DNA from: Lacinutrix sp. MedPE-SW
GTDB lineage: Bacteria > Bacteroidota > Bacteroidia > Flavobacteriales > Flavobacteriaceae
Direction: 5' to 3'
Length of the DNA: 64,000 nucleotides
NCBI RefSeq assembly: GCF_001874145.1
Contig: NZ_MPCX01000002.1
Span: 248,001-312,000, forward strand
The translations under genes and the position numbers were made by a program. Positions 8,638-36,340 of the stretch are shown piece after piece. Position 1 is the stretch's first letter. Each line of letters begins with the position of its first letter. The notes under the pieces were generated by a model, which worked only from the letters and a program-made list of their open reading frames with translations, did not search any database and was not told the origin of the DNA.

Positions 8638-9753
8638 TTACTCTTTTCCTGCTTTTAAAGCGTAAGCAGCAAATGAGGCTAACCAATGTGAGCCAGCATA
8701 AGCTCCAGAATCCATTTTATTATAACTTGCATTAAAATGTGTGTTTGCAAGCGCAATCATTTTATTATTATTTAGTGCTTTTCCTATTTCGAATAAACAC
8801 CAAGCACGACTAAAATTTAAACCATCAAGATGTGCCATTTTACCATCGGTTTTATCTACAACTTCAACAGGAAATATATGCTGCGAAGGATTTGTAGTGA
8901 ATCCAGGCATAAATTTACTTAGCCAAATATTATATTCTTCTTCAGGTAAAACATTTAGCATTAAAGCAGCTTCTTGCAAACAAGGAGATAAAAAGTCAAA
9001 ACCACCAGGCTCCCAACTTAGCGGGCAATTTTCATCTGTATAATAAAAATCTTTTGCTTTCTTTTTAATAACTGTTTCTAAGGTTTTATTATATTTTTTT
9101 GCATAATCTAAAGCAAAAGACATCCCAAATGCTGTATTTGGATGTTCTCCAACTCTTATAGGGTAATTAAGTTTTTCTAAAAAAATAATAAATTTATCTT
9201 CAATAAGTTTTGTTAATGGCGCTAAATCTTTCGCCATTTTTTTACCGTTTTCAGTTTCATACTCGTTTAAGCTTTCGGCAAGTTTTAATAACCAGGCCCA
9301 ACCGTAAGTACGTTCAAAAGTTTTATTATGTATATCGTTAAAATAAGCGACTTCTTTTTCAATGTTTTCTTTAGTAATATTAGCGTTTAGTTTTTTTAAA
9401 ATGGCTTCTTTATGTTTAAATTCGGGAAACTCAATTAATAAGTTTACTAAAGTCCAATGGCCATGTACAGACGAGTGCCAATCAAAACAACCATAAAAAG
9501 CAGGATGTAACTCTCGAGGTGTTTTTAAATAAGAAGCATCACCAATTACTTGGTTTAGTTTATTTGGGTATTCCTGGTCAATGCAATTATAGGCAAAGTG
9601 ATAGAGATAATTAGCTTTGTCCTCTGTAAAATTTATAGCTTTGGTTGTTATATTTTTAGTACTAACAGGTTTCGTTTTTATTGGTTTGTTTTTTGCTTTA
9701 TCACAGCTAAAAACTGTAATTAAAAAACATAATAATATTAGAGTATTTTTCAT
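8638..9753 (-). CDS. DUF2891 lipoprotein, probable alpha/alpha-toroid protein
   Basis: 371 residues. The signal MKNTLILLCFLITVFSC is a lipobox with Cys at 17. The mature protein matches the DUF2891 pattern: an N-terminal ELHPAFYGCFDWHSSVHGHW motif, a central RTYGWAWLLKLAESL helix, NTAFGMSFALDYA, a CPLSWEPGGFDFLSPCLQEA segment and a C-terminal SHWLASFAAYAL. The repeated Trp/His-rich helices suggest an alpha/alpha barrel like those of glycan-acting enzymes, but no activity is established for DUF2891. It follows the Zn-ribbon gene by three bases. Confidence 0.85.
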   Translation of the reverse strand: MKNTLILLCFLITVFSCDKAKNKPIKTKPVSTKNITTKAINFTEDKANYLYHFAYNCIDQEYPNKLNQVIGDASYLKTPRELHPAFYGCFDWHSSVHGHWTLVNLLIEFPEFKHKEAILKKLNANITKENIEKEVAYFNDIHNKTFERTYGWAWLLKLAESLNEYETENGKKMAKDLAPLTKLIEDKFIIFLEKLNYPIRVGEHPNTAFGMSFALDYAKKYNKTLETVIKKKAKDFYYTDENCPLSWEPGGFDFLSPCLQEAALMLNVLPEEEYNIWLSKFMPGFTTNPSQHIFPVEVVDKTDGKMAHLDGLNFSRAWCLFEIGKALNNNKMIALANTHFNASYNKMDSGAYAGSHWLASFAAYALKAGKE

Positions 9754-9756
9754 GAG

Positions 9757-10104
9757 TTATTTTCGTTTTACTAAAGCAAAAAAATCGTTTTCTAATGGTA
9801 AATAACCTTGATCATAAACAAAGTAGTAAACAGTACCAGCTTTGGTAGTATAAATACTTGTAAAGTAATTAAAATCGAACCCTTTTTCTATAAGTTTCGT
9901 TTTTGTGGTTTTGGTTTTTTGCTCTGGATTCAAGTTTTCTAATATTCTCCAGTTTTTTCTTAAACGGTTATTAATATTTCTTATTAAGTTTTTTCCATCT
10001 TTATTAATTTTATTATTAAATGCATTTCGACAGCCATCACTACAGAATTTTTTATCGATTCTGCCAACAATTTTGTCACCACATTCAGGGCATTTTTTTT
10101 GCAT
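9757..10104 (-). CDS. small zinc-ribbon protein (DUF2116-like)
   Basis: 115 residues. The N-terminus carries two Cys pairs, CPECGDK and FCSDGCRNAF, a four-Cys treble-clef or zinc-ribbon pattern like DUF2116 proteins. The rest is basic and helical, then strand-rich (about 70-110). No signal peptide, so cytoplasmic; a nucleic-acid or protein contact role is only a guess. Its start overlaps the GNAT gene by 20 bases, showing tight coupling. Confidence 0.8.
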   Translation of the reverse strand: MQKKCPECGDKIVGRIDKKFCSDGCRNAFNNKINKDGKNLIRNINNRLRKNWRILENLNPEQKTKTTKTKLIEKGFDFNYFTSIYTTKAGTVYYFVYDQGYLPLENDFFALVKRK

Positions 10105-10636
10105 AATTGTTTTTATTTAGTTCGTACCAATTAATCATCTCGTTTTCAAAAGGAAATTGCTCAATATAATTTAAGCCTATTTTTTTTAGTATTTTATTAG
10201 ATGCTATATTTCCTGTTTCTGCAGCACCTACTATGGTGTCTAAATTCATTGTGTTGAATCCATATTCTAATGATGCGATTGCAGTTTCAAAGGCATAACC
10301 TTTGTTCCAGAAACGTTCTATTAATCTATAGCCAACATCGTAAAAGTCTCTTTTATCACCTAATGTTTCTTGCTCTCCTGTATTAAATTTTAATCCAGAC
10401 CAACCAATAAATTCATTTGAAGCTTTTTCTATAACAGCAAATCTTCCAATACCACGAGTTTGATATTGATTTATAATTTTATTTATATTTTCTTGTGCCT
10501 CTGCTTTAGTTTTAATAGGTTTTTTACCTAAGTATACATGTACATTTGGGTTGGAGTCCAACTCAAACATACCATCTAAATCTGTAGCTCTTATTTCTCT
10601 TAAAATTAGCCTTTGGGTTTCTATGTGTGTACTCAT
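10085..10636 (-). CDS. GNAT family N-acetyltransferase (RimJ/RimL type)
   Basis: 183 residues covering a whole GNAT domain. It starts with the RimJ-like IETQRLILREIRATDLDGM segment. It carries FIGWSGLKF, VGYRLIERFWNKGYAFETA (the acetyl-CoA pyrophosphate loop region with RFWNKGYA) and a C-terminal NIASNKILKKIGL helix. RimJ/L-like enzymes transfer acetyl from acetyl-CoA to protein N-termini or small amines; the acceptor cannot be named here. It is the first gene of a four-gene minus-strand unit. Confidence 0.88.
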   Translation of the reverse strand: MSTHIETQRLILREIRATDLDGMFELDSNPNVHVYLGKKPIKTKAEAQENINKIINQYQTRGIGRFAVIEKASNEFIGWSGLKFNTGEQETLGDKRDFYDVGYRLIERFWNKGYAFETAIASLEYGFNTMNLDTIVGAAETGNIASNKILKKIGLNYIEQFPFENEMINWYELNKNNYAKKMP

Positions 10637-10695
10637 TTTATTTGTGTTTGTTTAAACAGTGTTTTGAAAATCAGTAGTGTAAGATACTAATTAAT

Positions 10696-10730
10696 CGTTT
10701 ACAAACGACAACAAACGCTTACAATCGACA
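10696..10730. repeat. two 15-base direct repeats, 20-base period, upstream of ssb
   Basis: CGTTTACAAACGACA (10696-10710) and CGCTTACAATCGACA (10716-10730) match at 13 of 15 positions and are spaced by exactly 20 bases, about two helical turns. The first contains the palindrome CGTTT-AC-AAACG. They lie in the divergent space between the GNAT gene and ssb and could be a binding site for a regulator; this is inference. Confidence 0.45.
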
Positions 10731-10836
10731 TTAAATACGTAAATACCGAATAACTTTTTACTTCTACAAGATCTTTGCAGTGTCGAAACATAAGAACTCG
10801 ATGGTATTAACTGTTTAACACGAAAAATTAAAAATT

Positions 10837-11172
10837 ATGAACACGCTTAAAAACAAAGTACAGTTAATTGGTAACTTAGGTCAAGATCCAGAAATTATCA
10901 ATTTAGAATCAGGAAAAATGTTAGCTAAATTTTCTATCGCAACAAACGATAGCTATAAAAATGCTAATGGTGAAAAAATCACCGATACGCAATGGCACAA
11001 TGTTGTTGCTTGGGGAAAAACAGCACAAATTATAGAGAAGTATGTAACAAAAGGAAAAGAAGTTGCTATAGAAGGAAAACTTACAACAAGAAGTTGGGAA
11101 GATAAAGATGGAATGAAACGCTACATAACAGAGGTTGTATGTAACGAGCTATTAATGCTTGGAAATAAATAA
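10837..11172 (+). CDS. ssb: short single-stranded DNA-binding protein
   Basis: 111 residues. The whole protein is one OB-fold: LKNKVQLIGNLGQDPEI at the start, then KFSIATND, the signature TQWHNVVAWGKTAQII, VTKGKEVAIEGKL and YITEVVCNELLML at the end. Bacterial Ssb normally has 150-180 residues and a disordered C-tail ending in an acidic tip (DDDIPF-like) that recruits repair and replication proteins. This one stops right after the OB-fold at LMLGNK and has no such tip. It is therefore probably an auxiliary Ssb rather than the main replication protein. The gene stands alone, with direct repeats upstream and a strong terminator downstream. Confidence 0.92.
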   Translation: MNTLKNKVQLIGNLGQDPEIINLESGKMLAKFSIATNDSYKNANGEKITDTQWHNVVAWGKTAQIIEKYVTKGKEVAIEGKLTTRSWEDKDGMKRYITEVVCNELLMLGNK

Positions 11173-11188
11173 GCATATAAAACATAAT

Positions 11189-11220
11189 AAAAAAAGGCTC
11201 ACTTAAGTGAGCCTTTTTTT
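11189..11220. terminator. bidirectional intrinsic terminator between ssb and the EEP gene
   Basis: A perfect palindrome (GGCTCACTT/AAGTGAGCC, 11196-11213) flanked by A and T runs serves both convergent genes. Confidence 0.9.
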
Positions 11221-12217
11221 ATTTTTTAGAGAGTATTAAATACACAGGGAAATGGTCACTATAACCACCTTTGTAGCGTTTGCCAACATACGTTCTATAA
11301 GGAGAACCTTTATATTTGCCGTCGCGTTCTTTTAAAAAATCTTCATCAAAAATATTAGCATTCACAAATCTTAAGGCATTTTTTTTACGTTCAAAAAAAT
11401 TGTGAGTAATTAAAACTTGATCAAATAAATTCCATCTTTGGTTATGGCTAGTTGTACCGCGATCTCGAGACAAAAGTGTTCGCATTGGGTTAAACAAGCC
11501 ATGACTAAGCTCTAGAGATTTTATACTTTTACTAAAAGGATCATCGTTAAAATCACCCATTACAATTATTTTAGCTTCACTGTTTTTTTCTTTTAATTCT
11601 GTTATTATTTCGGTTACTTTTTGCGAAGCTTTCATACGTTTATATTCAGTTTCCACATCACCAGATCGTCGAGATGGCCAATGGTTAACAAGCACATGTA
11701 GCTCTAAGCCTTCAAATAAACCACTAACTAATAATATATCTCTTGTTAAATCTACTACACCCAAATCGTCTACTAAATCTAGAGTATAAGATTTAGAATA
11801 GGCAACTTTAAACACAGACTCATCGTAAAGTAAAGCAACATCAATGCCTCGCTCATCTGGAGAATCATAATGTACAAAATCGTAGTTATATTCCTTAAGG
11901 TGTTTAGAGTTTACTAAATCTTTTAAAACAGCTTCGTTTTCAATTTCAGCTAAACCAACAATTGCAGGATGTCTATTAACATCTTTTTTTCCAATATTAG
12001 AAATAACGTAACCAATTTTTCGTAGTTTATTATTGTAACGTTTTATACTCCATTTTTTTTCAGAATTAGGAGTCATATCACTGTCTCGTGTTAATTCATC
12101 ATCATAAACATCAAATAGGTTTTCAATATTATAAAAAGCGATACAGTGTCTTTTTCTTTTAGATTTAAAGAAGTTTAATTTCAATTTTTTTAGATTTGAT
12201 AGAGTTAAAAATAGCAA
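11219..12217 (-). CDS. endonuclease/exonuclease/phosphatase (EEP) family protein
   Basis: Up to 332 residues. EEP-fold motifs occur in order: FYNIENLFD (metal-binding Asn and Glu of the first strand), VGLAEIEN, IVMGDFNDDP (catalytic Asp and Asn), WNLFDQVLIT, and the C-terminal GYSDHFPVYL (catalytic His). The catalytic set is complete. The family includes nucleases, phosphodiesterases and lipid phosphatases, so the substrate is open. No clear signal peptide is seen. A -7 promoter box overlaps the assigned ATG (12215-12217), so translation may instead begin at an in-frame TTG near 12184, about 11 codons in, which keeps the whole domain. Confidence 0.88.
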   Translation of the reverse strand: MLFLTLSNLKKLKLNFFKSKRKRHCIAFYNIENLFDVYDDELTRDSDMTPNSEKKWSIKRYNNKLRKIGYVISNIGKKDVNRHPAIVGLAEIENEAVLKDLVNSKHLKEYNYDFVHYDSPDERGIDVALLYDESVFKVAYSKSYTLDLVDDLGVVDLTRDILLVSGLFEGLELHVLVNHWPSRRSGDVETEYKRMKASQKVTEIITELKEKNSEAKIIVMGDFNDDPFSKSIKSLELSHGLFNPMRTLLSRDRGTTSHNQRWNLFDQVLITHNFFERKKNALRFVNANIFDEDFLKERDGKYKGSPYRTYVGKRYKGGYSDHFPVYLILSKK

Positions 12218-12221
12218 ATTT
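12214..12221 (-). promoter_or_regulatory. -7 box overlapping the EEP gene start
   Basis: On the minus strand the sequence is TAAATTTG, a match to TAnnTTTG, lying over the first ATG of the gene. If used, transcription would begin inside the assigned coding region. Confidence 0.35.
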
Positions 12222-12239
12222 AATCTGCTTTCAATTGAT

Positions 12240-12247
12240 TAACTTTG
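12240..12247 (+). promoter_or_regulatory. -7 box for hflX
   Basis: TAACTTTG matches TAnnTTTG and lies 17 bases before the hflX ATG. The -33 element is not clear. Confidence 0.4.
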
Positions 12248-12264
12248 TGTTTTAAAATAAATTT

Positions 12265-13494
12265 ATGTTAGAAAAGAAAGATGTAGAATTAGAAAGTGCT
12301 GTTCTAATAGGAATTATTACTAAAGATCAGGACGAAGAACGCTCTAAAGAATATTTAGATGAGTTGGAGTTTTTAACTTACACAGCCGGTGGAGATGTAA
12401 AAAAGCGTTTTACACAAAAAATGGATATGCCTAATCCTAAAACCTTTATTGGTACAGGAAAAATGGAAGATGTTCGCCAGTATATTGAAGCTAATAATAT
12501 TAGTACTGCAATTTTTGATGATGAGTTGTCTGCAGCTCAAGAACGTAATATCTCTAAAATATTAAACTGTAAAGTATTAGACAGAACAAATTTAATATTA
12601 GATATTTTTGCACAACGAGCACAAACCAGTGCGGCAAGAACACAAGTAGAATTAGCACAATTTGAATATTTATTACCGCGACTAAAAGGAATGTGGACAC
12701 ACCTTGAAAGACAAAAAGGTGGTATAGGTATGCGTGGACCTGGAGAAACAGAAATTGAAACAGATAGACGTATAGTTCGTGACCGTATTGCATTATTAAA
12801 AGCAAAAATTAAAACAATAGACAAACAAATGTCTGTGCAACGCGGTAATCGAGGTAAAATGGTTCGTGTCGCTTTAGTTGGGTATACCAACGTAGGTAAA
12901 TCTACCTTAATGAATACCATTAGTAAAAGTAAAGTATTTGCAGAAAACAAGCTTTTTGCAACTTTAGATACTACAGTTAGAAAAGTAGTAATACAAAACC
13001 TACCATTTTTATTAAGCGATACAGTAGGTTTTATACGTAAACTACCTACGCAATTAGTAGAGAGTTTTAAAAGTACATTAGACGAGGTTCGTGAGGCAGA
13101 TTTATTACTACATGTTGTAGATATTTCTCACCCTAATTTTGAAGACCATATAGCATCTGTAAACAAAATTCTTGGTGAAATAGATAGTAGCAATAAGCCA
13201 ACAATAATGGTTTTTAATAAAATTGATGCTTATCAAGCCAAACCATACGATGAAACCGATTTAATTGCAGAAAGAACCGAAGAACATTACAGTCTTGCCG
13301 AGTGGAAAAGAACTTGGATGAATCGAGTTGGTGAGGATAATGCATTATTTATTTCGGCATTAAACAAGAAAAACTTAGAAGACTTTAAAAAACGTGTTTA
13401 CGATGAGGTAAGACAAATACACATTACACGTTTCCCATATAATCATTTTCTATATCCAGATTACGATTATGAAAACATGGGAGAAGAAGAATAA
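12265..13494 (+). CDS. hflX: ribosome-associated GTPase HflX
   Basis: 409 residues. The N-terminal HflX domain (about 10-195) includes the glycine-rich RLKGMWTHLERQKGGIGMRG segment and the GPGETEIETDRR motif diagnostic of HflX. The G domain follows: P-loop GYTNVGKST at about 206-214, DTVGF (G3), FNKID (G4) and SALNKKN (G5). HflX splits and rescues stalled or heat-damaged ribosomes and binds the 50S subunit. The C-terminal extension after the G domain is short and ends with acidic residues. A structured repeat and a strong terminator follow. Confidence 0.96.
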   Translation: MLEKKDVELESAVLIGIITKDQDEERSKEYLDELEFLTYTAGGDVKKRFTQKMDMPNPKTFIGTGKMEDVRQYIEANNISTAIFDDELSAAQERNISKILNCKVLDRTNLILDIFAQRAQTSAARTQVELAQFEYLLPRLKGMWTHLERQKGGIGMRGPGETEIETDRRIVRDRIALLKAKIKTIDKQMSVQRGNRGKMVRVALVGYTNVGKSTLMNTISKSKVFAENKLFATLDTTVRKVVIQNLPFLLSDTVGFIRKLPTQLVESFKSTLDEVREADLLLHVVDISHPNFEDHIASVNKILGEIDSSNKPTIMVFNKIDAYQAKPYDETDLIAERTEEHYSLAEWKRTWMNRVGEDNALFISALNKKNLEDFKKRVYDEVRQIHITRFPYNHFLYPDYDYENMGEEE

Positions 13495-25699: not shown

Positions 25700-26452
25700 T
25701 TACGAGTTCACTTCTTCTTTGATCCAGTCGTATCCTTTTTCTTCTAATTCGTGTGCTAATTCTTTACCACCAGATTTAACTATACGCCCATTGTATAAAA
25801 CATGTACAAAATCTGGTACGATATAATCTAATAAACGTTGGTAATGTGTTATAACAACAACAGCATTATCTTTAGATTTTAGTTTATTAACACCATTTGC
25901 TACAATACGTAAAGCATCAATATCTAAACCAGAATCTGTTTCATCTAAGATTGCTAGTTTTGGTTCTAGCATTGCCATTTGAAAAATTTCATTACGTTTC
26001 TTTTCTCCTCCAGAAAATCCTTCGTTTAAAGAACGTGATAAAAACTTACGGTCTATTTCTAATAATTCAGATTTTTCACGAATCATTTTAAGCATGTCTT
26101 TAGCAGGCATGTCTTCTAAACCTTTTGCTTTACGTGTTTCGTTAATTGCAGTCTTCATGAAATTTGTAACAGAAACACCTGGAATTTCTACAGGATACTG
26201 AAACGATAAGAAAATACCTTTATGTGCACGCTCTTCGGCAGCTAAATCTTCAAGGTCTTCACCATCTAGTAAAATTTCACCTTTTTCAACTTCGTATTCT
26301 TCTTTTCCAGCAATAACTGAAGCTAAGGTACTTTTTCCTGAACCATTTGGTCCCATTATAGCATGTACTTCTCCTGGTTTTACTTCAAGGTTAATGCCTT
26401 TTAAAATCGATTTGTCTTCAACACTTGCGTGCAAATCTTTTATTTGTAACAT
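25700..26452 (-). CDS. sufC: Fe-S cluster assembly ATPase SufC
   Basis: 250 residues, an ABC ATPase without membrane domain: Walker [10 protein letters not shown], the SufC-type signature [11 protein letters not shown], Walker [13 protein letters not shown] and the H-loop [13 protein letters not shown]. SufC drives the scaffold complex with SufB and SufD. The gene starts 4 bases after the small lipoprotein gene ends. Confidence 0.97.
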
Positions 26453-26456
26453 AGTC

Positions 26457-26870
26457 TTATTTTCCTATTTTAATCACTTCTTTTTTAGCGTCTTGTTTTT
26501 TAACGCTAATAATTTCTTTAATATCTATACTGTATGGCCAAGCTTCTTCGCCTTCTTTTTTAGGTATTAACTTACCTCTAACTTGTACTAAAACACCATC
26601 TGTAGCTTCTTCTTTAAAAGGTTCGCTCATTTTGTTTAGTTCCTTTGATTTATTATTAATAACTACGCCGTAAATAGAGCTATTTCCTACTTGTAAAACA
26701 GCGGCATCTCCATAAAATGAAAACTCTCCACTTAGAGTTGTTAAGCCGTCTTTTGCTTGAGATCTATCTACACCATCTGCATCTATAGTTGTTGTTTCAA
26801 CTTGTTTTGCATCTGTTTTACAGTTTGTAAACACTGTAACACATAAAAGGAGTATTAAAACTTTTTTCAT
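26457..26870 (-). CDS. small lipoprotein between sufB and sufC, OB-fold-like
   Basis: 137 residues, signal [17 protein letters not shown] with Cys at 17. The mature part begins with a linker, then [23 protein letters not shown], a Lys-rich stretch and [23 protein letters not shown]. The strand pattern with a VRGKL turn looks like an OB-type barrel of periplasmic proteins; this is a guess from pattern. It lies inside the sufB-sufC gap with 4 and 33 base spacings, so it is part of the operon, although the other products are cytoplasmic. Confidence 0.8.
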
Positions 26871-26903
26871 ATTTAAAAAATAATAAATCTGGTTAGTTTT
26901 TAA

Positions 26904-28352
26904 TTATCCTACAGAACCTTCTAAGCTAATTTCTAAAAGCTTTTGTGCTTCTACTGCAAATTCCATTGGTAATTTATTTAACACTTCTTTACTAAAACCA
27001 TTTACTATTAATGCAATAGCTTTTTCTGTGTCTATACCACGTTGGTTACAGTAAAATATTTGGTCTTCACCAATTTTACTTGTAGTAGCTTCGTGCTCTA
27101 TCATGGCGCTTTTATTTTTTGCTTCTATATATGGAAACGTATGTGCGCCACACTCGTTACCCATAAGTAAACTATCACATTGTGAAAAGTTACGTGCATT
27201 TTCTGCGCGAGAACTTACTTGTACTAATCCACGGTATGAGTTTTGTGATTTACCTGCAGAAATACCTTTTGATATAATGGTTGATTTAGTGTTTTTACCT
27301 AAATGAATCATTTTAGTACCTGTATCTGCTTGTTGGTAATTGTTTGTTACTGCTATAGAGTAAAATTCACCTACAGAGTTATCACCTTTTAATACGCATG
27401 AAGGATATTTCCAGGTTACTGCACTTCCAGTTTCAACTTGAGTCCAAGAAATTTTTGCGTTTTTCTCACATAAACCTCTTTTTGTAACAAAGTTAAAAAC
27501 ACCACCTTTTCCTTCTGCATTTCCAGGATACCAGTTTTGTACTGTACTGTATTTAATTTCTGCATCGTCAAGAGCAATAAGCTCTACAACCGCTGCGTGT
27601 AATTGGTTTTCATCACGGCTTGGTGCTGTACAACCTTCTAAATATGATACATAACTACCTTCGTCTGCAACTACAAGTGTTCTTTCAAACTGTCCTGTTC
27701 CTGCTTGATTAATTCTAAAGTATGTAGATAGTTCCATTGGGCAACGTACACCTTTAGGTATGTAACAGAAAGAACCGTCACTAAATACTGCAGAGTTTAA
27801 TGCTGCATAAAAGTTGTCTTTAGTTGGTACAACTGTTCCTAAGTGTTTTCTTACAAGTTCTGGATGCTCTTTAATGGCTTCAGAAATACTCATAAAAATT
27901 ATACCTTTTTCACCTAATGTTTTTTTAAAGGTTGTTGCTACAGAAACTGAGTCTACAACAACATCCATTGCTACATTGGCTAGCTTTTTTTGTTCGTCTA
28001 TAGAAATTCCAAGCTTTTCAAAAGTTGCTAGTAATTCTGGATCAACCTCATCTAAACTATCGTATTTAGGTTTACTGTTGGGAGCAGAGTAATAAGAAAT
28101 TGCTTGAAAATCTGGTTTTTGGTAGTTTACATTAGCCCAATCTGGTTCTTCCATTTCTTTCCAAACCTTGAAGGCTTCTAGTCTCCATTCTGTCATCCAT
28201 TCTGGTTCTTCTTTTTTCTTAGAAATTGCTCTAACAATATCTTCGTTTAAACCAACAGGAAATGTTTCAGATTCTATATCTGTATAAAAACCGTATTCGT
28301 ATTCTTTGGTTTTAAGTTCTTCTCTTAAATCGTCTTCTGTGTACTTCGACAT
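26904..28352 (-). CDS. sufB: Fe-S cluster assembly scaffold SufB
   Basis: 482 residues from the ATG at 28350-28352 ([13 protein letters not shown]). The frame is open up to 28400, but that would overlap the sufA-like gene, so the later start is preferred. Family motifs are present: [37 protein letters not shown] with the conserved Cys, [10 protein letters not shown], and [17 protein letters not shown] near the C-terminus. SufB is the main scaffold on which the cluster forms. It is the second gene of the minus-strand suf operon. Confidence 0.96.
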
Positions 28353-28369
28353 AATTCGCTCTTTCAATT

Positions 28370-28699
28370 TTATAATGAGAAACTTTCTCCACAACCGCAA
28401 GTTCGGTTTGCATTAGGGTTATTAAACACAAAACCAGTGCCGTTTAATCCACCAGAATATTCTAGTGTTGTACCAATTAGGTACAAGAAACTTTTTTTAT
28501 CAACTATGATTTTTACACCATTATCTTCAAAAACTTTATCGTCTTGTTCTTGTGCTTTATCAAACTTTAAATCATAAGATAAACCAGAGCAGCCGCCACT
28601 TTTTACGCCAACGCGTACAAAGTCTGTGGTTGCATTGTAGCCCTCGTCGCTCATTAGCTCAACGACTTTCTTTTTAGCTGTATCAGAAACTTTTATCAT
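28370..28699 (-). CDS. A-type Fe-S carrier (SufA/IscA/HesB family)
   Basis: 109 residues. The three conserved Cys residues are present: one in [13 protein letters not shown] (about residue 38) and two in [10 protein letters not shown] at the C-terminus (about 102 and 104). A-type proteins receive clusters from the scaffold and hand them to target enzymes. It is the first gene of the suf operon, 17 bases before sufB, with a -7 box at 28731-28738. Confidence 0.94.
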
Positions 28700-28828: not shown

Positions 28829-29887
28829 TTAGTCCTGAAAATCTGTGTTGGTAAGAAAAGATGGGTCTGAAAGTGATAGTAAAAAAGCTTTTAAATCTGC
28901 CTTATCTTGTGTGGTTAAATTTACGCCACCTTGATCAAGTTTTTTCATTAATGAATCTACTGTTGGAGAATCTTGCAAGCCTGTACTGTAAAATTCTATG
29001 ACCTCATCTAATGTGTTAAATCTACCATCATGCATATAAGGTGCTGTGTAGGCTAAATTTCTTAGAGATGGACTTCTAAATTTACCATTATCATTTGAGT
29101 CTCCAGTTACTGCTCCCAAACCAAGGTCTGTAAAGTTAGCATCTAAGCCATTGTTATGGAAAATATTATCTGTCCATAATGGATTGTTAGGGCTGCCATG
29201 ACAATGAAAACAATCGCCACGAGTTTCGTCCATAAACACATTTAAACCATTTTGTTCTTGAGGTGTAAGTGTTGCTTGACCTAATAAGAATTTATCAAAC
29301 TTTGAATTGGCAGAAATTAATGTACGTTCAAATTGTGCAATAGCCATTGTTACAAGTTCTTTTGTAATTGTTGAAGTTTTAAAGGCTAGACGAAAAAGCT
29401 CTGGGTAGTCTGGGTCGTTTTGAAGTTTTAAAACAACATCTTCCCAATTAGCATGCATTTCTATTGGGTTTTGTACTGGTTCTAATGCTTGTCTTTCTAA
29501 ACTTAATGCTTGGCCATCCCAATTGAAACGTTCACCATAATTCCATGCTAAATTAAATAAAGGCATGGCGTTTCTGGTTCCAAAAATACCATCTATACCA
29601 TCGCTAGTTGCTGTGTTATCTGTAAATGCTAATTGTGGTGAGTGGCATGAAGCACAAGACATGGTTTCGTCTCCAGAGAGTTTGTTGTCGAAAAATAATT
29701 TTTTACCTAAGGCAACACCTTCAACTGTTTGTGGATTATTGTTAGGTATTACTGGAGAAATAATGTTTTGCTCAAAAATTTCGGGAATATTTAAAGCTAA
29801 TGGTGTTGGCTCATAAGTTTCGGTTTTGTCGTCACTTGAACAAGCAAAGACAAGAACTAAAATTAAAAATAGGAGCCAATTTTTCAT
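28829..29887 (-). CDS. di-haem cytochrome c peroxidase / MbnH-like lipoprotein
   Basis: 352 residues, lipoprotein signal MKNWLLFLILVLVFAC (Cys at 16) followed by SSDD, a surface-export-like acidic stretch. Two haem c sites are visible: CASCH at 78-82 and CFHCH at 226-230. Between and after them are the family segments GKKLFFDNKLS, NYGERFNWDG, and YMHDGRFNTLDEVIEFY, whose Met is a likely axial ligand. This is the bacterial CcP/MauG superfamily, which reduces H2O2 or oxidises residues of a protein partner. The preceding gene encodes an MbnP-family protein, and MbnH enzymes are exactly this type, so an MbnH-like role is more likely than simple peroxide removal (inference). It is the last gene of a five-gene operon. 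Confidence 0.92.
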   Translation of the reverse strand: MKNWLLFLILVLVFACSSDDKTETYEPTPLALNIPEIFEQNIISPVIPNNNPQTVEGVALGKKLFFDNKLSGDETMSCASCHSPQLAFTDNTATSDGIDGIFGTRNAMPLFNLAWNYGERFNWDGQALSLERQALEPVQNPIEMHANWEDVVLKLQNDPDYPELFRLAFKTSTITKELVTMAIAQFERTLISANSKFDKFLLGQATLTPQEQNGLNVFMDETRGDCFHCHGSPNNPLWTDNIFHNNGLDANFTDLGLGAVTGDSNDNGKFRSPSLRNLAYTAPYMHDGRFNTLDEVIEFYSTGLQDSPTVDSLMKKLDQGGVNLTTQDKADLKAFLLSLSDPSFLTNTDFQD

Positions 29888-29893
29888 TTTTGC

Positions 29894-30676
29894 TTATTGT
29901 ATTATGTTTTCTAAACTAAATACTGAAGCTCCATTTTCATACATCATTATTTGTGCTGTAGAATTTGGCATTAGCATTTGGTTGTATTGGTTTAAATCCC
30001 ATAAGTTTGGGCTTTTAAACCATTCGGCAATATTCATTTGGACTTGAAAAGTGGCATTGTTTGTAATTGTTACTGCACCTAGGTTGACTTCAAAAAAAGT
30101 GTCTTGAGGAAATGTTGGGTTCATTCCTGGATTATCTACTGCACGAATAGCGTGGTAATTAAATCCTTGTTCTGCGTCGCTTGAGTTTATAAACTTACCA
30201 TCAAATTGCATATAATGATAGCCACCACCAAGCATTTCTGGTACATTAAAATTTTCGGTATTTAAATCTATATAATTTTCGGCGTTATCTTCATTATCTA
30301 AACCAAACGTAAATGAAACATTGGTATACACACCGGTAGGAATATTTTCATCTAAACTTAATGTCGTATTATTATTGTTTGTAACATCTACTAGATTATA
30401 GATATCAAAAACAATATCATCTTGACCATCTCGAGAAAATGTAATGTCTGATATTACGTATCGAAGTCTTTCTATACTTAACATTTCGCCATTTTCATTT
30501 GTATATTGAATCGTGTTGAAATCTGCACTTGTAACTTCGGTATCATTCCAGGTGTGCTTAAAACTAAATGTTGTTTGTGCTTCGGTATTTAATGTGATAT
30601 TATCATCGTTATCATCACTACAAGATGAGAATGTTAAAGCAGCTATTATTGCTAGTAAAGAAAAGATTTTTTTCAT
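29894..30676 (-). CDS. MbnP-family lipoprotein
   Basis: 260 residues, signal MKKIFSLLAIIAALTFSSC (Cys at 19) followed by SDDNDDN. The mature domain matches MbnP: TFSFKHTWNDTEVTSADF, then LSIERLRYVISDITFSRDG, TLSLDENIPTGVYTNVSFTFGLDN and GGGYHYMQFDGKFIN. The C-terminal half has NYHAIRAV and NIAEWFKSPNLWDL. In methanotrophs MbnP is a secreted copper-linked protein in which MbnH is reported to convert a Trp to kynurenine; candidate Trp residues here are in HTWND, AEWFK and NLWDL. The start overlaps the previous stop as TAATG, and a di-haem protein gene follows by 6 bases. Confidence 0.88.
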   Translation of the reverse strand: MKKIFSLLAIIAALTFSSCSDDNDDNITLNTEAQTTFSFKHTWNDTEVTSADFNTIQYTNENGEMLSIERLRYVISDITFSRDGQDDIVFDIYNLVDVTNNNNTTLSLDENIPTGVYTNVSFTFGLDNEDNAENYIDLNTENFNVPEMLGGGYHYMQFDGKFINSSDAEQGFNYHAIRAVDNPGMNPTFPQDTFFEVNLGAVTITNNATFQVQMNIAEWFKSPNLWDLNQYNQMLMPNSTAQIMMYENGASVFSLENIIQ

Positions 30677-32025
30677 TATTTTATTTTAATTAAAAGTAGG
30701 TCTGAAAACCCTTTGTTTTCTGTAATGTCGCCATCGTCACTTGTTGTGTCTCCAACTGCTACAATTGTTTTGTCGTTTAATTGGGCTACACCATACGAGA
30801 AATCTATGTTAGAACCTCCAACGGTTTGTTGCCATTCTATATTGCCTTCACTATCTACTTTTACAACCCAAGCATCATTTTGACCTTGGTTGATTGTAAC
30901 GTCGCCATCTGAGCTTCGCGAACTTCCAGAAAGTAAAAAGCCATTATCTTGAGTTTTTACTATATCTCTAGCAACATCAAAGCTTGTGCCTCCTAAGGTT
31001 TTTTCCCAAAGTAATTGACCTTCTGGAGAAATTTTGATTAACCATAAATCTGCGGCTCCGTTATTGTTAGTTACATCAATATCACTACTTCTGGTATCTC
31101 CAGCTATAATATAATTGCCGTCATTAGATGTTGTTATTGCTCTAGCTTCATCTATTTCGCTGCCTCCAAAAGATTTTTCCCATATTAAATCTCCTGTATT
31201 TGAGATTTTAATAACCCAAAAATCATAAGAACCTTTGTTGTTTGAAATGTCTGTGTCATCACTATCTGAACCTCCCGCAATAATATATGCATTGTCATTA
31301 GTTTCTACAATTCCTTCTGGAGTGTCTGTAAATAGGCCTCCAAAATATTTGCTCCATTGTAATTCTCCTAAAGCGTTAAGTTTTATTGTCCAGTAATCTC
31401 CACCTGCATGTCTGTTATTGTTCCTTGATGTGTTTCCTTCGCCATTAGAGGCTGTTACGTCTAAAACACCAGAAATTAAATAACCGTTGTCGTTTGTTTG
31501 AATTAAGGTTATACCAGAGTCTGTTCCAGAAAAACCAAAAGATTTTTGCCAGATTATATTTCCAGAGTTATCAAGTTTTGCTAACCAATAATCTTCCTGA
31601 CCTGCGTTTTGAGTTACATCTAAATCACTACTAAAGCTAGAGCCTAAAATGGCAAAACCACCATCTTGGGTTTGAATGATACTTTTTCCTCTATCGTCTT
31701 GTGAACCGCCGTAAGTTTTGTTCCATTGTATTTGGCTTTCGCTATCAAATTTTAACACCCAGAAATCAAAATTATCATCAGTTTTATCTATAATATCGCC
31801 ATCTGTACTTTGTGTATAGCCTAATATTGCATAACCACCATCTAAGGTGTTAGTAACAGATTGGGCGCTTTCATTTTTAGAACCTCCGTAATTTTTAATA
31901 AAATCTATTTCTCCAGTAATGGTATTAGTACTTGTTGGAATTGCGTTGTCGTCGTCATTTTTGCAATTAAAAAAAGTGATAGTAAGTACTAATATTAAAG
32001 ATGTTTTGATGAATTTAAAATTCAT
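30676..32025 (-). CDS. seven-repeat beta-propeller lipoprotein
   Basis: 449 residues. The signal MNFKFIKTSLILVLTITFFNC (Cys at 21) is followed by KNDDDN, an acidic lipoprotein stretch. Seven units of about 55-60 residues follow, each of the form (W)xKxxGGSxxDxAxxIxxTxDGGYIIxGxSxSxDGDV. Examples are WNKTYGGSQDDRG, WEKSFGGSEIDEA and WEKTLGGTSFDVA. A seven-bladed propeller is the natural reading. There is no T9SS tail and no enzyme motif, so it may be a binding platform at the cell surface. It lies 2 bases from the upstream gene and overlaps the MbnP gene by one base. Confidence 0.85.
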   Translation of the reverse strand: MNFKFIKTSLILVLTITFFNCKNDDDNAIPTSTNTITGEIDFIKNYGGSKNESAQSVTNTLDGGYAILGYTQSTDGDIIDKTDDNFDFWVLKFDSESQIQWNKTYGGSQDDRGKSIIQTQDGGFAILGSSFSSDLDVTQNAGQEDYWLAKLDNSGNIIWQKSFGFSGTDSGITLIQTNDNGYLISGVLDVTASNGEGNTSRNNNRHAGGDYWTIKLNALGELQWSKYFGGLFTDTPEGIVETNDNAYIIAGGSDSDDTDISNNKGSYDFWVIKISNTGDLIWEKSFGGSEIDEARAITTSNDGNYIIAGDTRSSDIDVTNNNGAADLWLIKISPEGQLLWEKTLGGTSFDVARDIVKTQDNGFLLSGSSRSSDGDVTINQGQNDAWVVKVDSEGNIEWQQTVGGSNIDFSYGVAQLNDKTIVAVGDTTSDDGDITENKGFSDLLLIKIK

Positions 32026-32027
32026 AA

Positions 32028-33509
32028 TTAGTTGCTCTTTTTAATAATAAATAAACCTCTATCAATATCACTAATAAGTATATTGCCACTTTCAAAATAT
32101 GGGTACACATTCCACGCACCATTAAAATTAGCGCTATTGCTACCTGGATAAGTATCAAAAAAACCAACTTCTGTCATAGTGTTAGAGCCTATGTTTGTAA
32201 TATCTATCATACGAACACCAGCTCGATAATTTGCCTGGTAGTAAATATTATCTTTTACATAACCATTGTGGTCTATGGCTAAGGTTGGGCCAAAATATTC
32301 CATTTGAAAAGTTGGGTTGTCTAAGTCTGAAAAATCAAATACTAAAGACCTAGTGTTTCCTCCAAAATTTTGTTCATCTAACTCATCTCCTAAAATAAAA
32401 TATTGCTGATTTTCTGTAAACCAACCTTGATGCGTGTACCCTACGTTATTATAACTTATAGTAGATATTTCTATTGGGTTTGCTTTATCTGTTATATCTA
32501 CTAAAACAATTTCTGTTTCATTACTGCCAATTAAAATTTCTCTACCTATGTAAGAACTAACACCTGGAATTTCGGCGTTATTATCTGGGCCATTATAAGT
32601 AACTACTTGTGCATCGTGCGAATAGCCTCCATTTGCATATCCACCAGCAGCGACTGGATTTGTTGGATTTTGAATATTTACAAAGTGTGGTCCGCCGTTA
32701 AATGTTGTTGTACCAACACCATAGGCATAACCACTATCTTCGTTAATTACAATGTTGTGTGCGCTACCAAAACCGGTATAATGAGCATCTGGTGTAAAAG
32801 TTTCTGGAGCATTAGTTACATTGCGTAAGCGTGTTAAATCAAAAACTTGCATTCCATGATTTGAAGCTTCGCTAACTATAAAAGCATGATTATTATAAAC
32901 TTTAATATCTCTCCAGCTACTATTACTTGTAGCTGTTGGTAATATGCCTACAACTGTTAATTGAGAAGTGTTTGAAATGTCTACAAAAACAGAGCCTGAA
33001 GAGGTGCCAACTAAAGCATATTCTTTTCCGTTTAATGGATCTGTCCATCCCCAAGAATCGTTTCCAGAACCTGCAGCTCCCATTTCAGCAATAGAAAGGG
33101 TTGCCATTAAATCGTAATCATTACATGGAAACTCTCCTGCCATACCATTAATACATGGAAATAATGGTTGTATATTATCTTCACAAGCGTCACCAATTCC
33201 ATTATTATTACTGTCTAATTGATCTGGATTAGGCTCGTTTGGGCAATTATCTTCACTGTCTACAATACCATCGCCATCACGGTCATCACAAACATCACCT
33301 ATACCATTATCATCACTATCTAGTTGGTTTGGATTACTTGTTTCTGGACAATTGTCTAATGTGTCACTAACTCCATCGCCGTCTTGGTCACTAAATGCTT
33401 GTGTAGTATTATCATCATCACTAGAGCAACTTGATGCTATTGCTATAAAAAAAGTTAGTGTAAAACATAGTATGGCAAGTTTTGAAATGTAATTTATTTG
33501 TTTTTTCAT
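32028..33509 (-). CDS. choice-of-anchor B propeller lipoprotein with thrombospondin type 3 repeats
   Basis: 493 residues from the ATG at 33507-33509; a longer frame to 33548 adds 13 residues before the signal peptide and is less likely. The signal ends at ASSC, then SSDDDN. Next, about residues 40-110 carry TSP3-type calcium loops, with DQDGDGVSDTLDNCP and DRDGDGIVDSEDNCP. The rest is a choice-of-anchor B domain with WGWTDPLNGKEYALVG near its start. It has conserved His-containing motifs in NHAFIV, SAHNIVINE, YSHDAQVVTYNG, YTHQGWFT and IDHNGYVK, and it ends with DIDRGLFIIKKSN. It is a paralogue of the neighbouring T9SS version, and LVIVD-like repeats build the propeller. Ligand unknown. Confidence 0.88.
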   Translation of the reverse strand: MKKQINYISKLAILCFTLTFFIAIASSCSSDDDNTTQAFSDQDGDGVSDTLDNCPETSNPNQLDSDDNGIGDVCDDRDGDGIVDSEDNCPNEPNPDQLDSNNNGIGDACEDNIQPLFPCINGMAGEFPCNDYDLMATLSIAEMGAAGSGNDSWGWTDPLNGKEYALVGTSSGSVFVDISNTSQLTVVGILPTATSNSSWRDIKVYNNHAFIVSEASNHGMQVFDLTRLRNVTNAPETFTPDAHYTGFGSAHNIVINEDSGYAYGVGTTTFNGGPHFVNIQNPTNPVAAGGYANGGYSHDAQVVTYNGPDNNAEIPGVSSYIGREILIGSNETEIVLVDITDKANPIEISTISYNNVGYTHQGWFTENQQYFILGDELDEQNFGGNTRSLVFDFSDLDNPTFQMEYFGPTLAIDHNGYVKDNIYYQANYRAGVRMIDITNIGSNTMTEVGFFDTYPGSNSANFNGAWNVYPYFESGNILISDIDRGLFIIKKSN

Positions 33510-33551
33510 AGTTGTTGATAACAGATAATTTTTTTTATAAAACAACAAGGC

Positions 33552-35117
33552 TTATTTTACAATAAGTTTTTTTGTTATTCTACTATTTATTTTAATTAAA
33601 TAAACTCCAGAACGGTAGTTTTTTACTGGTAGAACGAATGTTTCATTATTAATATTGTTCTTATTAAATACTTTTTGACCTAGTATATTGTAGATCTCTA
33701 CACTGTTGATTATGTTTTTTTTGGTTCCTTTAATTATTGAATTTGAGGTTGTTGGGTTTGGAGAAATTGTAAAGTTGTTAGCCAGTTGAAAGTTTGGGTT
33801 GCTTAAAGTATTACTTTCTCTAACTACAAAAAGTCCACTTTCAATGTCACTTATAATAATATTTCCACTTTGAAAATAAGGGTAAATACTCCAAGCGCCA
33901 TTAAAAGCTGTGCTGTTGCTACTTGGGTATGTGTCAAAATACCCAATCTCTGTCATAGAATTATTGTTGTCTGCTGTAGTCGATGGATTTGCATCGTTAG
34001 TGTTTGAGATGTTAGTAATATCAAAAACTCTCATGCCTGCACGATAGTTTGCTAAATAAAATTCGTTTCCTTTAACATAGCCATTATGATCTATAGCATC
34101 AAATGGAGCGACATAGGTAGAAGATAAAACAGGATTGTCTAGATCTAGCATATCAAAAACAAAAGTAGTTGTATTAGATCCTAAACCAGATTCGTCTAAT
34201 TCATCTCCCATTATAAAATATCTATGGTCATCTGTAAACCAGCCTTGATGAGCATATCCTGCTTGTGGATACACTACTTCTTGTATAAATTTAGGGTCGT
34301 TTTTATCTGTTACATCTATTAAAACAATTTTATCTGTTCCTCCACCGGTTGCACCGTTTGCAGCAACTAATATTTCTCGACCTACATAGCTGCTTACTCC
34401 TGCAATTTCTGCATTGGTATCTTGACCATTATAAGTAATTACTTGAGCGTCGTGAGTATAACCGCTAGCAGAATAACTTCCTGTAGTTATTGGTGATAGC
34501 GGATTTGAAATATCTATAAAAATTGGTCCGCCATTTGCAGCACCACAACCTACTAAATATGCTGTAGCAGCAGTTTCATTAATAACAATATTATGACAAC
34601 TACCAATGTTTAATCCACCATTATCACCTGTATAGGTTATTACATTACCATCTAAAGGATCTGAGGTGTAGGTTAAATCGGGATTTGGTCCATCTCTTAG
34701 TATAGTTAAATCAAATATTTGCATACCATGGTTGCCAACGCCATCTGCAACAATAAATGCATGGTTGTCGTAAACTTTTACATCCCTCCAAAAATTATTA
34801 GCGTTATTAGTAGATTCTATTCTGCCTAAAAAAATAGGGTTAACAGGGTTGGTTATATCAACAAAAGCTGTACTATTTGTTGTTGCCATAATAGCATACT
34901 CATTATTGTTTAATGGATCTGTCCAGCCCCAAATATCACTTCCTTCTGGAGTGCCGTCTGTAGTAGCTAAAATGGAAATAGGAATATTAGACATTAAATC
35001 ATAATTATCACAAGGATAAATGCCAGCCATTCCTGTTGTAGCATCGCATGGAGTTTGGGCTAAAAAAAGAGAATGGAAACTAATAAACAATAGTGTTAAA
35101 ATGTAGCTTTTTTGCAT
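33552..35117 (-). CDS. choice-of-anchor B propeller protein with T9SS type A sorting domain
   Basis: 521 residues. A signal peptide ends near FLAQ. The domain starts with GMAGIYPCDNYDLMSNIPIS and WGWTDPLNNNEYAIM, and continues with the same His motifs as its downstream paralogue: NHAFIVADGVGNHGMQIFDL, SCHNIVINE, YTHDAQVITYNG, YAHQGWFTDDHRYFIMGDEL and IDHNGYVKG. The C-terminus (about 440-521) is a type A sorting domain, with NNFTISPNPTTSNS and a final KKLIVK. Unlike the paralogue it goes out through T9SS rather than as a lipoprotein. It is the first gene of the operon; the upstream space is divergent with thiL. Confidence 0.9.
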   Translation of the reverse strand: MQKSYILTLLFISFHSLFLAQTPCDATTGMAGIYPCDNYDLMSNIPISILATTDGTPEGSDIWGWTDPLNNNEYAIMATTNSTAFVDITNPVNPIFLGRIESTNNANNFWRDVKVYDNHAFIVADGVGNHGMQIFDLTILRDGPNPDLTYTSDPLDGNVITYTGDNGGLNIGSCHNIVINETAATAYLVGCGAANGGPIFIDISNPLSPITTGSYSASGYTHDAQVITYNGQDTNAEIAGVSSYVGREILVAANGATGGGTDKIVLIDVTDKNDPKFIQEVVYPQAGYAHQGWFTDDHRYFIMGDELDESGLGSNTTTFVFDMLDLDNPVLSSTYVAPFDAIDHNGYVKGNEFYLANYRAGMRVFDITNISNTNDANPSTTADNNNSMTEIGYFDTYPSSNSTAFNGAWSIYPYFQSGNIIISDIESGLFVVRESNTLSNPNFQLANNFTISPNPTTSNSIIKGTKKNIINSVEIYNILGQKVFNKNNINNETFVLPVKNYRSGVYLIKINSRITKKLIVK

Positions 35118-35293: not shown

Positions 35294-36340
35294 ATGATAG
35301 AAGATAAAAATCAACAGCTAACACCTTTAAGCGAATTAGGTGAGTTTAAATTAATTGAACATTTAACTCAACAATTTGAAATTAAACATAATTCCACAAT
35401 AAAAGGTATTGGAGATGATGCCGCTGTATTAGATGCTAAGAATAAACAAACTGTTGTTACAACAGATATGTTGGTGGAAGGTGTACATTTCGATTTGAGT
35501 TATGTACCATTAAAGCATTTAGGTTACAAGGCTATTGTTGTTAATCTATCTGATGTTTTTGCTATGAATGCAGAAGCAAAACAAGTTACTGTATCTGTTG
35601 CGGTTTCTAATAGATTTCCTTTGGAGGCATTAGAAGAATTATATGAAGGAATAGCTTTAGCTGCAAAAATTTATAATGTAGATGTTGTTGGCGGAGATAC
35701 TACGTCTTCAACCTCTGGTTTGTTAATTTCTGTTACAGCAATTGGTGAAGTTAAACCAGAAGATGTAGTATATAGAAGTGGTGCAAAACCAAATGATTTA
35801 CTTGTAGTTTCGGGAGATTTAGGAGGTGCTTATATGGGACTTCAAATTCTTGAAAGAGAGAAAGAGGTTTTTAAAGTTAACCCAAATAATCAACCAGATT
35901 TAGATGCTTATACTTATATAATGGAGCGTCAATTAAAACCTGAAGCGAGAAAAGATATTATTAAGCTTTTAAAAGATTTAGATGTTAAACCAACTTCTAT
36001 GATTGATTTAAGTGATGGTTTATCCTCTGAAATTTTACATATATGTAAAGCCAGTAAAGTAGGTTGCGATTTATATGAAGATAAAATACCTTTAGATCCA
36101 CAAGTAATTTCTACTTGCGAAGAATTTAACATAGATAGTACTACCGTAGCTTTAAATGGAGGAGAAGATTATGAGTTATTAATGACTATTTCTCAAAAAG
36201 ATTTCCCTAAAATTAAAGCAAATCCAAATCTTACTGTTATAGGTTTTATGACAGAAGAAAATATAGGTGCTAATTTAGTGACAAGAGCAGAAACAAAAAT
36301 TCCTATAACTGCTCAAGGTTGGAAAAATTTTGATAGTTAA
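35294..36340 (+). CDS. thiL: thiamine-monophosphate kinase
   Basis: 348 residues, usual length. Family motifs: an N-terminal GEFKLIEHL, IKGIGDDAAVLD with the metal-binding Asp pair, TTDMLVEGVHF, the LSDVFAMNAE segment, DVVGGDTTSS, MIDLSDGLSSE and LNGGEDYELLMTI. ThiL phosphorylates thiamine monophosphate to the active diphosphate cofactor using ATP. It is a single gene; its stop codon overlaps the stop of the convergent small-protein gene. Confidence 0.95.
   Translation: MIEDKNQQLTPLSELGEFKLIEHLTQQFEIKHNSTIKGIGDDAAVLDAKNKQTVVTTDMLVEGVHFDLSYVPLKHLGYKAIVVNLSDVFAMNAEAKQVTVSVAVSNRFPLEALEELYEGIALAAKIYNVDVVGGDTTSSTSGLLISVTAIGEVKPEDVVYRSGAKPNDLLVVSGDLGGAYMGLQILEREKEVFKVNPNNQPDLDAYTYIMERQLKPEARKDIIKLLKDLDVKPTSMIDLSDGLSSEILHICKASKVGCDLYEDKIPLDPQVISTCEEFNIDSTTVALNGGEDYELLMTISQKDFPKIKANPNLTVIGFMTEENIGANLVTRAETKIPITAQGWKNFDS

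Follow-up and report, generated by a model that had tools for sequence, protein, structure and literature searches.

What a protein pair of the MbnP–MbnH type does in a flavobacterium, where it shares an operon with two kinds of propeller, was the question raised by this locus. The window (the whole stretch of 64,000 nucleotides analysed here, positions 248,001 to 312,000 of contig NZ_MPCX01000002.1 of Lacinutrix sp. MedPE-SW) contained five minus-strand genes, running from 35117 to 28829 in the list of open reading frames (ORFs). In transcription order, they encoded two choice-of-anchor B propellers (CAB1 and CAB2), another propeller (PROP), an MbnP-family protein and a di-haem enzyme like MbnH. 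The last two were named MbnP* and MbnH*, to set the window type apart from the better-known kind. The gene content, order and chromosomal site of the operon were conserved among relatives, MbnH* was kept where the oxidised Trp of MbnP had been lost, and MbnP–MbnH pairs from two sources occupied the same slot. Our answer, offered tentatively and at somewhat less than an even chance, is that the operon would serve exported metal handling by a CAB–PROP core, with MbnP and MbnH as an accessory pair.

The intergenic gaps were 42, 2, −1 (TAATG) and 6 bases in the order of transcription. The start of CAB2 was set at the ATG at 33509, which gives the 42-base gap, and the ORF from TTG spans 32028-33548. 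The initial annotation had described a five-gene, single-strand exported operon at 28829-35117, and its coordinates, gaps and overlap were all borne out by the ORF list. The features of the operon were as follows.

33552-35117, minus strand: CAB1, choice-of-anchor B seven-bladed propeller with a signal peptide (TIGR04312 447 bits, cut-off 100)
about 33555-33767, minus strand: T9SS sorting domain of CAB1 (TIGR04183 38.9 bits, cut-off 23)
32028-33509, minus strand: CAB2, choice-of-anchor B lipoprotein (TIGR04312 561 bits, cut-off 100), with two thrombospondin-3 repeats ahead of the propeller (TSP_3 65 bits)
32268-32759, minus strand: axial-register His of CAB2, namely H264 (32757-32759), H311 (32616-32618), H373 (32430-32432) and H427 (32268-32270)
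near 32382-32387, minus strand: D388/E389 of CAB2, whose residue numbers, like those of the CAB2 His, are from the TTG ORF
30676-32025, minus strand: PROP, seven-repeat propeller lipoprotein, from its sequence repeats
29894-30676, minus strand: MbnP*, MbnP-fold lipoprotein without WxW (PF20243 99.2 bits, cut-off 27)
30215-30250, minus strand: MbnP* residues 143-154, FNVPEMLGGGYH, with Phe143 in the position of the Trp that methanotroph MbnH oxidises, and GGGYH, which includes the invariant H154
29969-30154, minus strand: invariant MbnP* residues H175 (30152-30154), W226 (29999-30001) and M236 (29969-29971), in 141 of 141 rows
28829-29887, minus strand: MbnH*, di-haem MbnH/MauG-like lipoprotein (TIGR04039 269 bits, CCP_MauG 199 bits)
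29642-29656, minus strand: first CxxCH of MbnH* (residues 78-82), C, C and H in 140 of 140 rows
29198-29212, minus strand: second CxxCH of MbnH* (residues 226-230), C, C and H in 140 of 140 rows

The export signals were also as annotated. Four of the window proteins carried lipoprotein signals with acidic residues past the Cys (CSSDDD, CKNDDD, CSDDND and CSSDDK), and the fifth had the T9SS tail. In a crude count of relatives, the acidic signal was uneven, being found in 48 of 58 MbnP, 34 of 59 MbnH, 29 of 58 PROP and 17 of 56 CAB.

The assignment of the fourth gene to the MbnP family held. In addition to the PF20243 match, the best Foldseek match of MbnP* was 7l6g, the MbnP of Methylosinus trichosporium (E 3.1e-6, TM 0.55/0.51, 10% identity), and the six matches with E ≤0.001 were all 7l6g chains. 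In NCBIfam, no match of the window MbnP* to TIGR04052 (MbnP_like_WxW) was obtained at E 0.01; the WxW-type flavobacterial MbnP also fell below the cut-off of that model (55-57 bits vs 140). MbnH*, which adjoins MbnP*, possessed both CxxCH motifs and had 6e1c as its best match in the PDB (E 2.3e-56), in agreement with the earlier view of a CcP/MauG-type di-haem enzyme like MbnH. Its score against TIGR04039 (269.1 bits) was below the cut-off of 362.85, as were those of three WxW-type flavobacterial MbnH partners (226-229 bits).

The arrangement was followed in a sample of 199 Flavobacteriaceae genomes from 198 genera. Among 77 MbnP-centred stretches fetched, 60 held an MbnP scoring >100 bits to the window's type and made up the MbnP* set, and L043 was left out of it, its MbnP-fold protein being too distant (27 bits). 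The order CAB–PROP–MbnP*–MbnH* on one strand was present in 59 of the 60 loci. The exception, L090, lay on a contig end of 5.4 kb that carried neither CAB nor PROP, and a second contig of that genome held CAB and an MbnP fragment. CAB was single in 41 of the 59 loci and doubled in 11, with three copies in another 3 loci, four in a further 2 and five in the last 2. A second locus set, the best 80 of 471 coding stretches from a scan of further genomes, showed the same order in 79 loci, and the remaining one lacked CAB only and lay at a contig end. Seven of these 80 loci came from genomes already in the first set; the 141-row counts thus carry 7 repeats and come to 134 rows once these are removed. 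The counts over 61 loci represent 60 genera, with Lacinutrix, the genus of the window, present twice. Because the same order returned in 59/60 and 79/80 loci, the arrangement was not due to chance, and the co-occurrence whose absence would have told against the initial annotation was clearly found within the Flavobacteriaceae.

At the level of genomes, PF20243 was matched in 99 of the 199 and TIGR04312 in 110 (106 above cut-off), and the window genome held two genes of each kind. The co-occurrence was taken from a hand tally of the two profile-match tables. All 61 genomes with MbnP* also held CAB. The 110 CAB genomes comprised these 61, 6 whose CAB locus held a WxW-type MbnP, 4 with MbnP only elsewhere and 39 with none, which places an MbnP inside the CAB locus in 67 of 110. 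Fisher's test on the tally gave p ~5e-21 for MbnP* vs CAB and p ~4e-6 for any MbnP vs CAB, related genomes not being independent.

The most direct expectation was that MbnH* and MbnP* work as the known pair does. Manesis et al. are said to have found in 2021 that MbnH oxidises the first Trp of WxW to kynurenine and that copper binding by MbnP needs it, and the initial annotation had raised this change as one to look for in the window MbnP*. The window MbnP* reads FNV at the WxW position, with Phe143 aligned with the oxidised Trp. Since the residue is Phe, the known Trp-to-kynurenine change is impossible there, and kynurenine at this position was ruled out. Among the MbnP* loci, the first Trp was kept in 54 of 61 and was Phe in the other 7, and the full WxW was present in 12 of 60. 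Over both locus sets, the first Trp was replaced in 54 of 141 rows (52 of 134 without repeats). On a 140-row tree, the Trp/Phe trait required 4 changes, 3 of them forced by well-supported branches; on a 96-row MbnH tree, the 7 Phe rows needed 3 changes, one of which was forced. Several separate origins of the change are therefore likely, although not certain, on these trees. H154, H175, W226 and M236 of MbnP* were kept in 141/141 rows, and H175 aligned with the conserved His (HMG/HVG) of the WxW-type MbnP.

The enzyme was retained all the same. Both CxxCH motifs, W123 and Y300 of MbnH* were kept in 140 of 140 rows, the Phe-type loci included, and MbnH* was intact in all 53 rows from such loci. 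Y300 presumably corresponds to the MauG-type Tyr that takes the place of the axial Met of peroxidases. In the second locus set, the median dN/dS of MbnH* was 0.059 for Phe-type pairs and 0.073 for Trp-type pairs (20 pairs of each type); as the value was low in Phe-type pairs, MbnH* was under purifying selection in this sample, with no sign of relaxed selection without the Trp. These results bear on the explanation that MbnH* oxidises a Trp of MbnP* to kynurenine and that MbnP* thereby binds copper, in the manner of methanotroph MbnP, CorA and MopE. The MbnP fold, the kinship of MbnH*, the first Trp retained in most MbnP* loci, and the WxW pairs that six genera carry in this slot (see below) all speak for it, as does the kynurenine at the copper site of CorA and MopE, with a co-transcribed di-haem partner, in PMC3912023. 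However, the explanation is already contradicted for the window protein by Phe and the lack of WxW, the second Trp is lost in most MbnP*, and MbnH* stays intact in the Phe-type rows, so that we regard it as quite improbable. Because the classical kynurenine Trp is Phe in lineages like the window's, a changed target of MbnH* may be considered instead. MbnH* would then be a MauG-type di-haem enzyme acting, for example, on the newly invariant W226 in MbnP* or on an axial CAB Trp, and building a new protein-derived metal site at the surface; this is possible, if on balance doubtful.

A second source of MbnP–MbnH pairs was found at the same place. In six genera (L232, L233, L234, L235, L240 and L247), the slot after PROP held a WxW-type MbnP with MbnH, and WxW was present in 6/6 of these MbnP. 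In L240, about 4 kb lay between MbnP and MbnH. Five of the six loci were flanked by thiL and suf, and L233 showed neither within its stretch. In the 96-row MbnH tree, 61 MbnH* rows were separated from 35 others by a fully supported split (100), and the six slot MbnH formed one clade among the WxW-type rows (SH-aLRT 98). Since the slot WxW pairs branch apart from MbnH*, two recruitments are suggested, and the simplest reading is that the propeller core gained an MbnP–MbnH partner at least twice, or by replacement. What is new here, going by the tree, is this WxW pair from a separate MbnH branch in the same slot of six genera. It also bears on whether the genes may simply have been inherited side by side at a stable chromosomal site without working together. 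One family, one site and a clean presence or absence would fit such a case; nevertheless, a second and distantly related pair that occupies this slot with its genes in the same order, the tight spacing with overlapping reading frames, and the lack of any MbnP*-type pair apart from CAB within the Flavobacteriaceae sample make it improbable.

The chromosomal site itself was bounded by two neighbours in the window.

25700-28699, minus strand: start of the suf operon, with sufA-like (28370-28699), sufB, an NlpE_C-like lipoprotein gene and sufC; downstream boundary, outside the system
35294-36340, plus strand: thiL-like gene, the divergent upstream neighbour and other boundary of the insertion site

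For the upstream neighbour, thiL is a presumed name and not one taken from a library match. Downstream of the 59 complete loci, the sufB cluster was found in 58, sufC in 57 and a sufA-like gene in 54, and thiL was the divergent upstream neighbour in 52. Twenty sufA loci were inspected; the genomes of 19 lacked MbnP*, and the remaining locus, G118, lay close to a WxW-type MbnP. In 14 of them, thiL and sufA were directly adjacent (within ~600 bases) with no operon gene between. One of the others had ~1.2 kb between the two genes, one had ~1.9 kb, one had no thiL, two (L228 and L229) had only CAB–PROP at the site, and G118 had CAB–CAB–PROP plus a WxW-type pair. The thiL–suf junction is thus old, with the operon either cleanly present or cleanly absent there, and the closeness of the operon to suf therefore says little on function. 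From the position of the operon, which immediately precedes suf and shares its strand, one could read a suf-linked unit for oxidative-stress or Fe-S protection, with MbnH* as a peroxidase. This is highly improbable, since the thiL–suf neighbourhood is old and independent of the operon and MbnH* presumably has Tyr where peroxidases carry the axial Met; a functional tie drawn from proximity was ruled out by the same 14 loci.

The core also occurred without MbnP–MbnH, as CAB–PROP alone in L191, L193, L194, L195, L228 and L229, and L192 had CAB alone next to thiL. The genomes of L191-L195 gave no PF20243 match. Two further observations were made at this site. The NlpE_C-like lipoprotein between sufB and sufC (26457-26870, minus strand) had a relative in 49 of 59 operon loci and also in 8 operon-less loci among the sufA loci inspected. 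In L191, which lacks MbnP–MbnH, a 974-residue exported protein was encoded between CAB and thiL (9700-12624, minus strand) and weakly resembled haem-binding CxxCH proteins of the PVC type.

The propellers were examined for a site of their own. CAB1 carried the motifs CHN, THD, AHQ, DHN, GDELDE and WGWTD. The AlphaFold2 model of CAB2 was a seven-bladed propeller (mean pLDDT 93.5), in which H264, H311, H373 and H427 were placed one per blade on four successive blades, at most 1 residue from the start of the innermost strand; Arg-Asp, Trp and the acidic GDELDE motif stood at matching places. All 91 CAB rows taken from operons were identical at the four His, D388 and E389. Together with the conserved Asp/Glu, the four His may be read from the model as a putative metal site, for binding or catalysis. 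For comparison, 22 CABs were taken from 20 loci without MbnP–MbnH. The four His and E389 were identical in 22/22 of them, and all 23 chosen positions in 18. As the His were kept without the pair, they gave no evidence of dependence on MbnH. Many conserved propeller His had been annotated and counted towards a metal or redox system; the conservation applied to the CABs but not to PROP, in which only H206 reached ≥90%, and it proved intrinsic to the choice-of-anchor B family. The CAB WGW was tried as support for a modified Trp and set aside, being kept equally in CABs whose genomes gave no MbnP match. CABs also formed an expanding exported family, with up to nine genes per genome (G156 (L035), G078, G090, G198 and others), some of about 1030-1080 residues and standing away from the operon.

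The best Foldseek match of CAB2 was 5hrm, a propeller phosphotriesterase (E 2.6e-10), with ordinary propellers ranking behind. The presumed metal ligands of this enzyme, E201, H258, H389, E407 and H475 in a binuclear site, read Glu, His, His, Glu and His in a close plasmid homologue, and H258 and H389 of these shared the CAB axial register by eye. The Sphingobium haloalkylphosphorus hydrolase (5hrm, 5ioj) resembled CAB2 by its rank in the Foldseek search, its LVIVD-type repeats and, by eye, its per-blade His register. It differed in having no significant sequence similarity to CAB (hhalign probability 3.6; profile E 1.2), and CAB has its His in four successive blades. A weak NCBIfam match of CAB to methanethiol oxidase (E 5.5e-6) was not repeated in PDB searches. 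From these data, the CABs might be exported metal-dependent hydrolases of phosphoesters or similar compounds, matured or protected oxidatively by MbnP–MbnH, which would have no role in metal acquisition. The enzyme-like invariance of the CABs outside the operon, the fold match, at least two presumed ligands in the axial register and the many genomes with CAB but no MbnP are in line with this; the missing homology and the absence of substrate-related genes among the operon neighbours of the 59 loci are not, and no CAB is known to have an activity. On the whole, it seems unlikely.

PROP gave fewer clues. Seven repeats were marked by eye, no Pfam family matched, a weak NCBIfam match to a LipL53-type SBBP propeller lipoprotein was obtained, and the best solved relative by sequence in the PDB was CylK. 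PROP was found beside CAB in 59 of the 60 MbnP* loci.

Other MbnP–MbnH pairs differed in their surroundings. The second pair of the window genome (L001/L107, on contig 17) had the same two genes in the same order, with its own MbnH-like gene adjacent; unlike the window pair, it kept WxW, and its neighbours were small Cys-rich exported proteins, not CAB or PROP, with one carrying the motif CNGKCH ahead of the pair. Thirty-six loci of other pairs were compared, among them the six slot loci. Loose single-linkage clustering placed the exported family of that small Cys-rich protein near 26 of them and another Cys-rich protein near 19. A receptor was present in 8 of the 36, and the one scanned bore a weak resemblance to the model of the TonB copper receptor (78 bits vs 472). 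Outside the Flavobacteriaceae, no CAB or PROP was found in the fetched stretches of 20 phylum-level MbnP loci. In two genomes of another family of the phylum (L263 and L264), the genes for MbnH* and an MbnP*-like protein, which by eye lacked both the first Trp and W226, were followed by a TonB-linked outer-membrane receptor gene. A TonB-linked gene, of the kind that the initial annotation had suggested looking for, was thus seen after such a pair, in stretches without CAB or PROP.

With these comparisons, we favour exported metal handling. The operon products would form an exported system, probably at the outer-membrane surface, whose core would be CAB with a metal site, together with PROP as a second propeller serving as partner or scaffold. 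MbnP and the di-haem oxidase MbnH would be accessory to this core, which would have recruited such a pair on at least two occasions; the two proteins would bind a metal in an oxidatively matured site and may help to supply the CAB propellers with it or to maintain them. In the window lineage, MbnH* would have to target a different residue or partner, or work differently. Copper is the likeliest metal, though unproven, being favoured only by kinship, and the metal theme of the initial annotation stays the likeliest one, given the MbnP fold (7l6g) and the MbnH-like partner (6e1c). The metal at CAB, its nature as copper, the surface location and the direction of transfer are what we infer. Several points weigh against the account as a whole. 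Most further fold matches of CAB2 were ordinary propellers, CAB showed no sequence homology to the phosphotriesterase, and its His cluster was placed by strand register, not by distances or a measured metal. Between the window and its congener, the dN/dS was 0.28 for MbnP and 0.22 for MbnH compared with 0.07-0.10 for the propellers, based on few changes. Moreover, 39 of the 110 CAB genomes in the tally were without any MbnP, and the CAB-linked MbnP all came from one bacterial family, so that the genomes are not independent. Finally, no copper gene was found among the neighbours of the 59 complete loci, and the upstream motif search gave no shared regulatory motif, its standout words resembling the start of thiL.

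Compared with known systems, the window pair was similar to the methanobactin MbnP–MbnH of Methylosinus trichosporium (7l6g, 6e1c) in the MbnP fold, the adjacent di-haem enzyme and the aligned HMG/HVG His. It differed in having no WxW, Phe at the oxidised Trp, and the new invariant H154, W226 and M236. Unlike methanobactin operons, it had two propeller kinds as partners and no MbnB in the genome: PF05114 gave 0 matches genome-wide (control matches in 2 of 14 genomes). Methanobactin synthesis was thus not indicated, as the annotated lack of a methanobactin gene had implied. Manesis et al. reportedly also analysed the genome neighbourhoods of MbnP–MbnH in 2021. By description in PMC3912023 and PMC3621798, not by sequence, CorA–CorB and MopE–SACCP were alike in pairing the gene of a copper protein with a di-haem gene and unlike in having no propellers; a cell-surface setting was reported there for CorA and MopE. 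MbnP–MbnH pairs spread beyond methanotrophs, according to PMC3621798. Both window CABs were full members of choice-of-anchor B (TIGR04312), to which the axial His/acid site and the MbnP–MbnH link are added here. No published account of the operon was found in open PubMed Central, subscription papers lying outside that search and prior notice being possible. No paper with the phrase "choice-of-anchor B" was found in open PubMed Central, and none of the "choice-of-anchor" papers listed there was, going by the listing, on the function of the family.

That a propeller core with a highly conserved putative metal site acquired a pair in the same slot at least twice suggests that the proteins truly work together. 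From this operon, one could learn what enzymes of the MbnH kind really act on, and it bears on what MbnP–MbnH pairs serve outside methanotrophs, far beyond which they are known. Natural lineages in which the oxidised Trp is kept (with or without WxW) or is replaced by Phe, or from which the pair is absent, form a ready comparison set, suited to asking for the target of MbnH and the need for kynurenine. For the choice-of-anchor B proteins, which are abundant and functionally unnamed, the putative site provides a first structural hypothesis.

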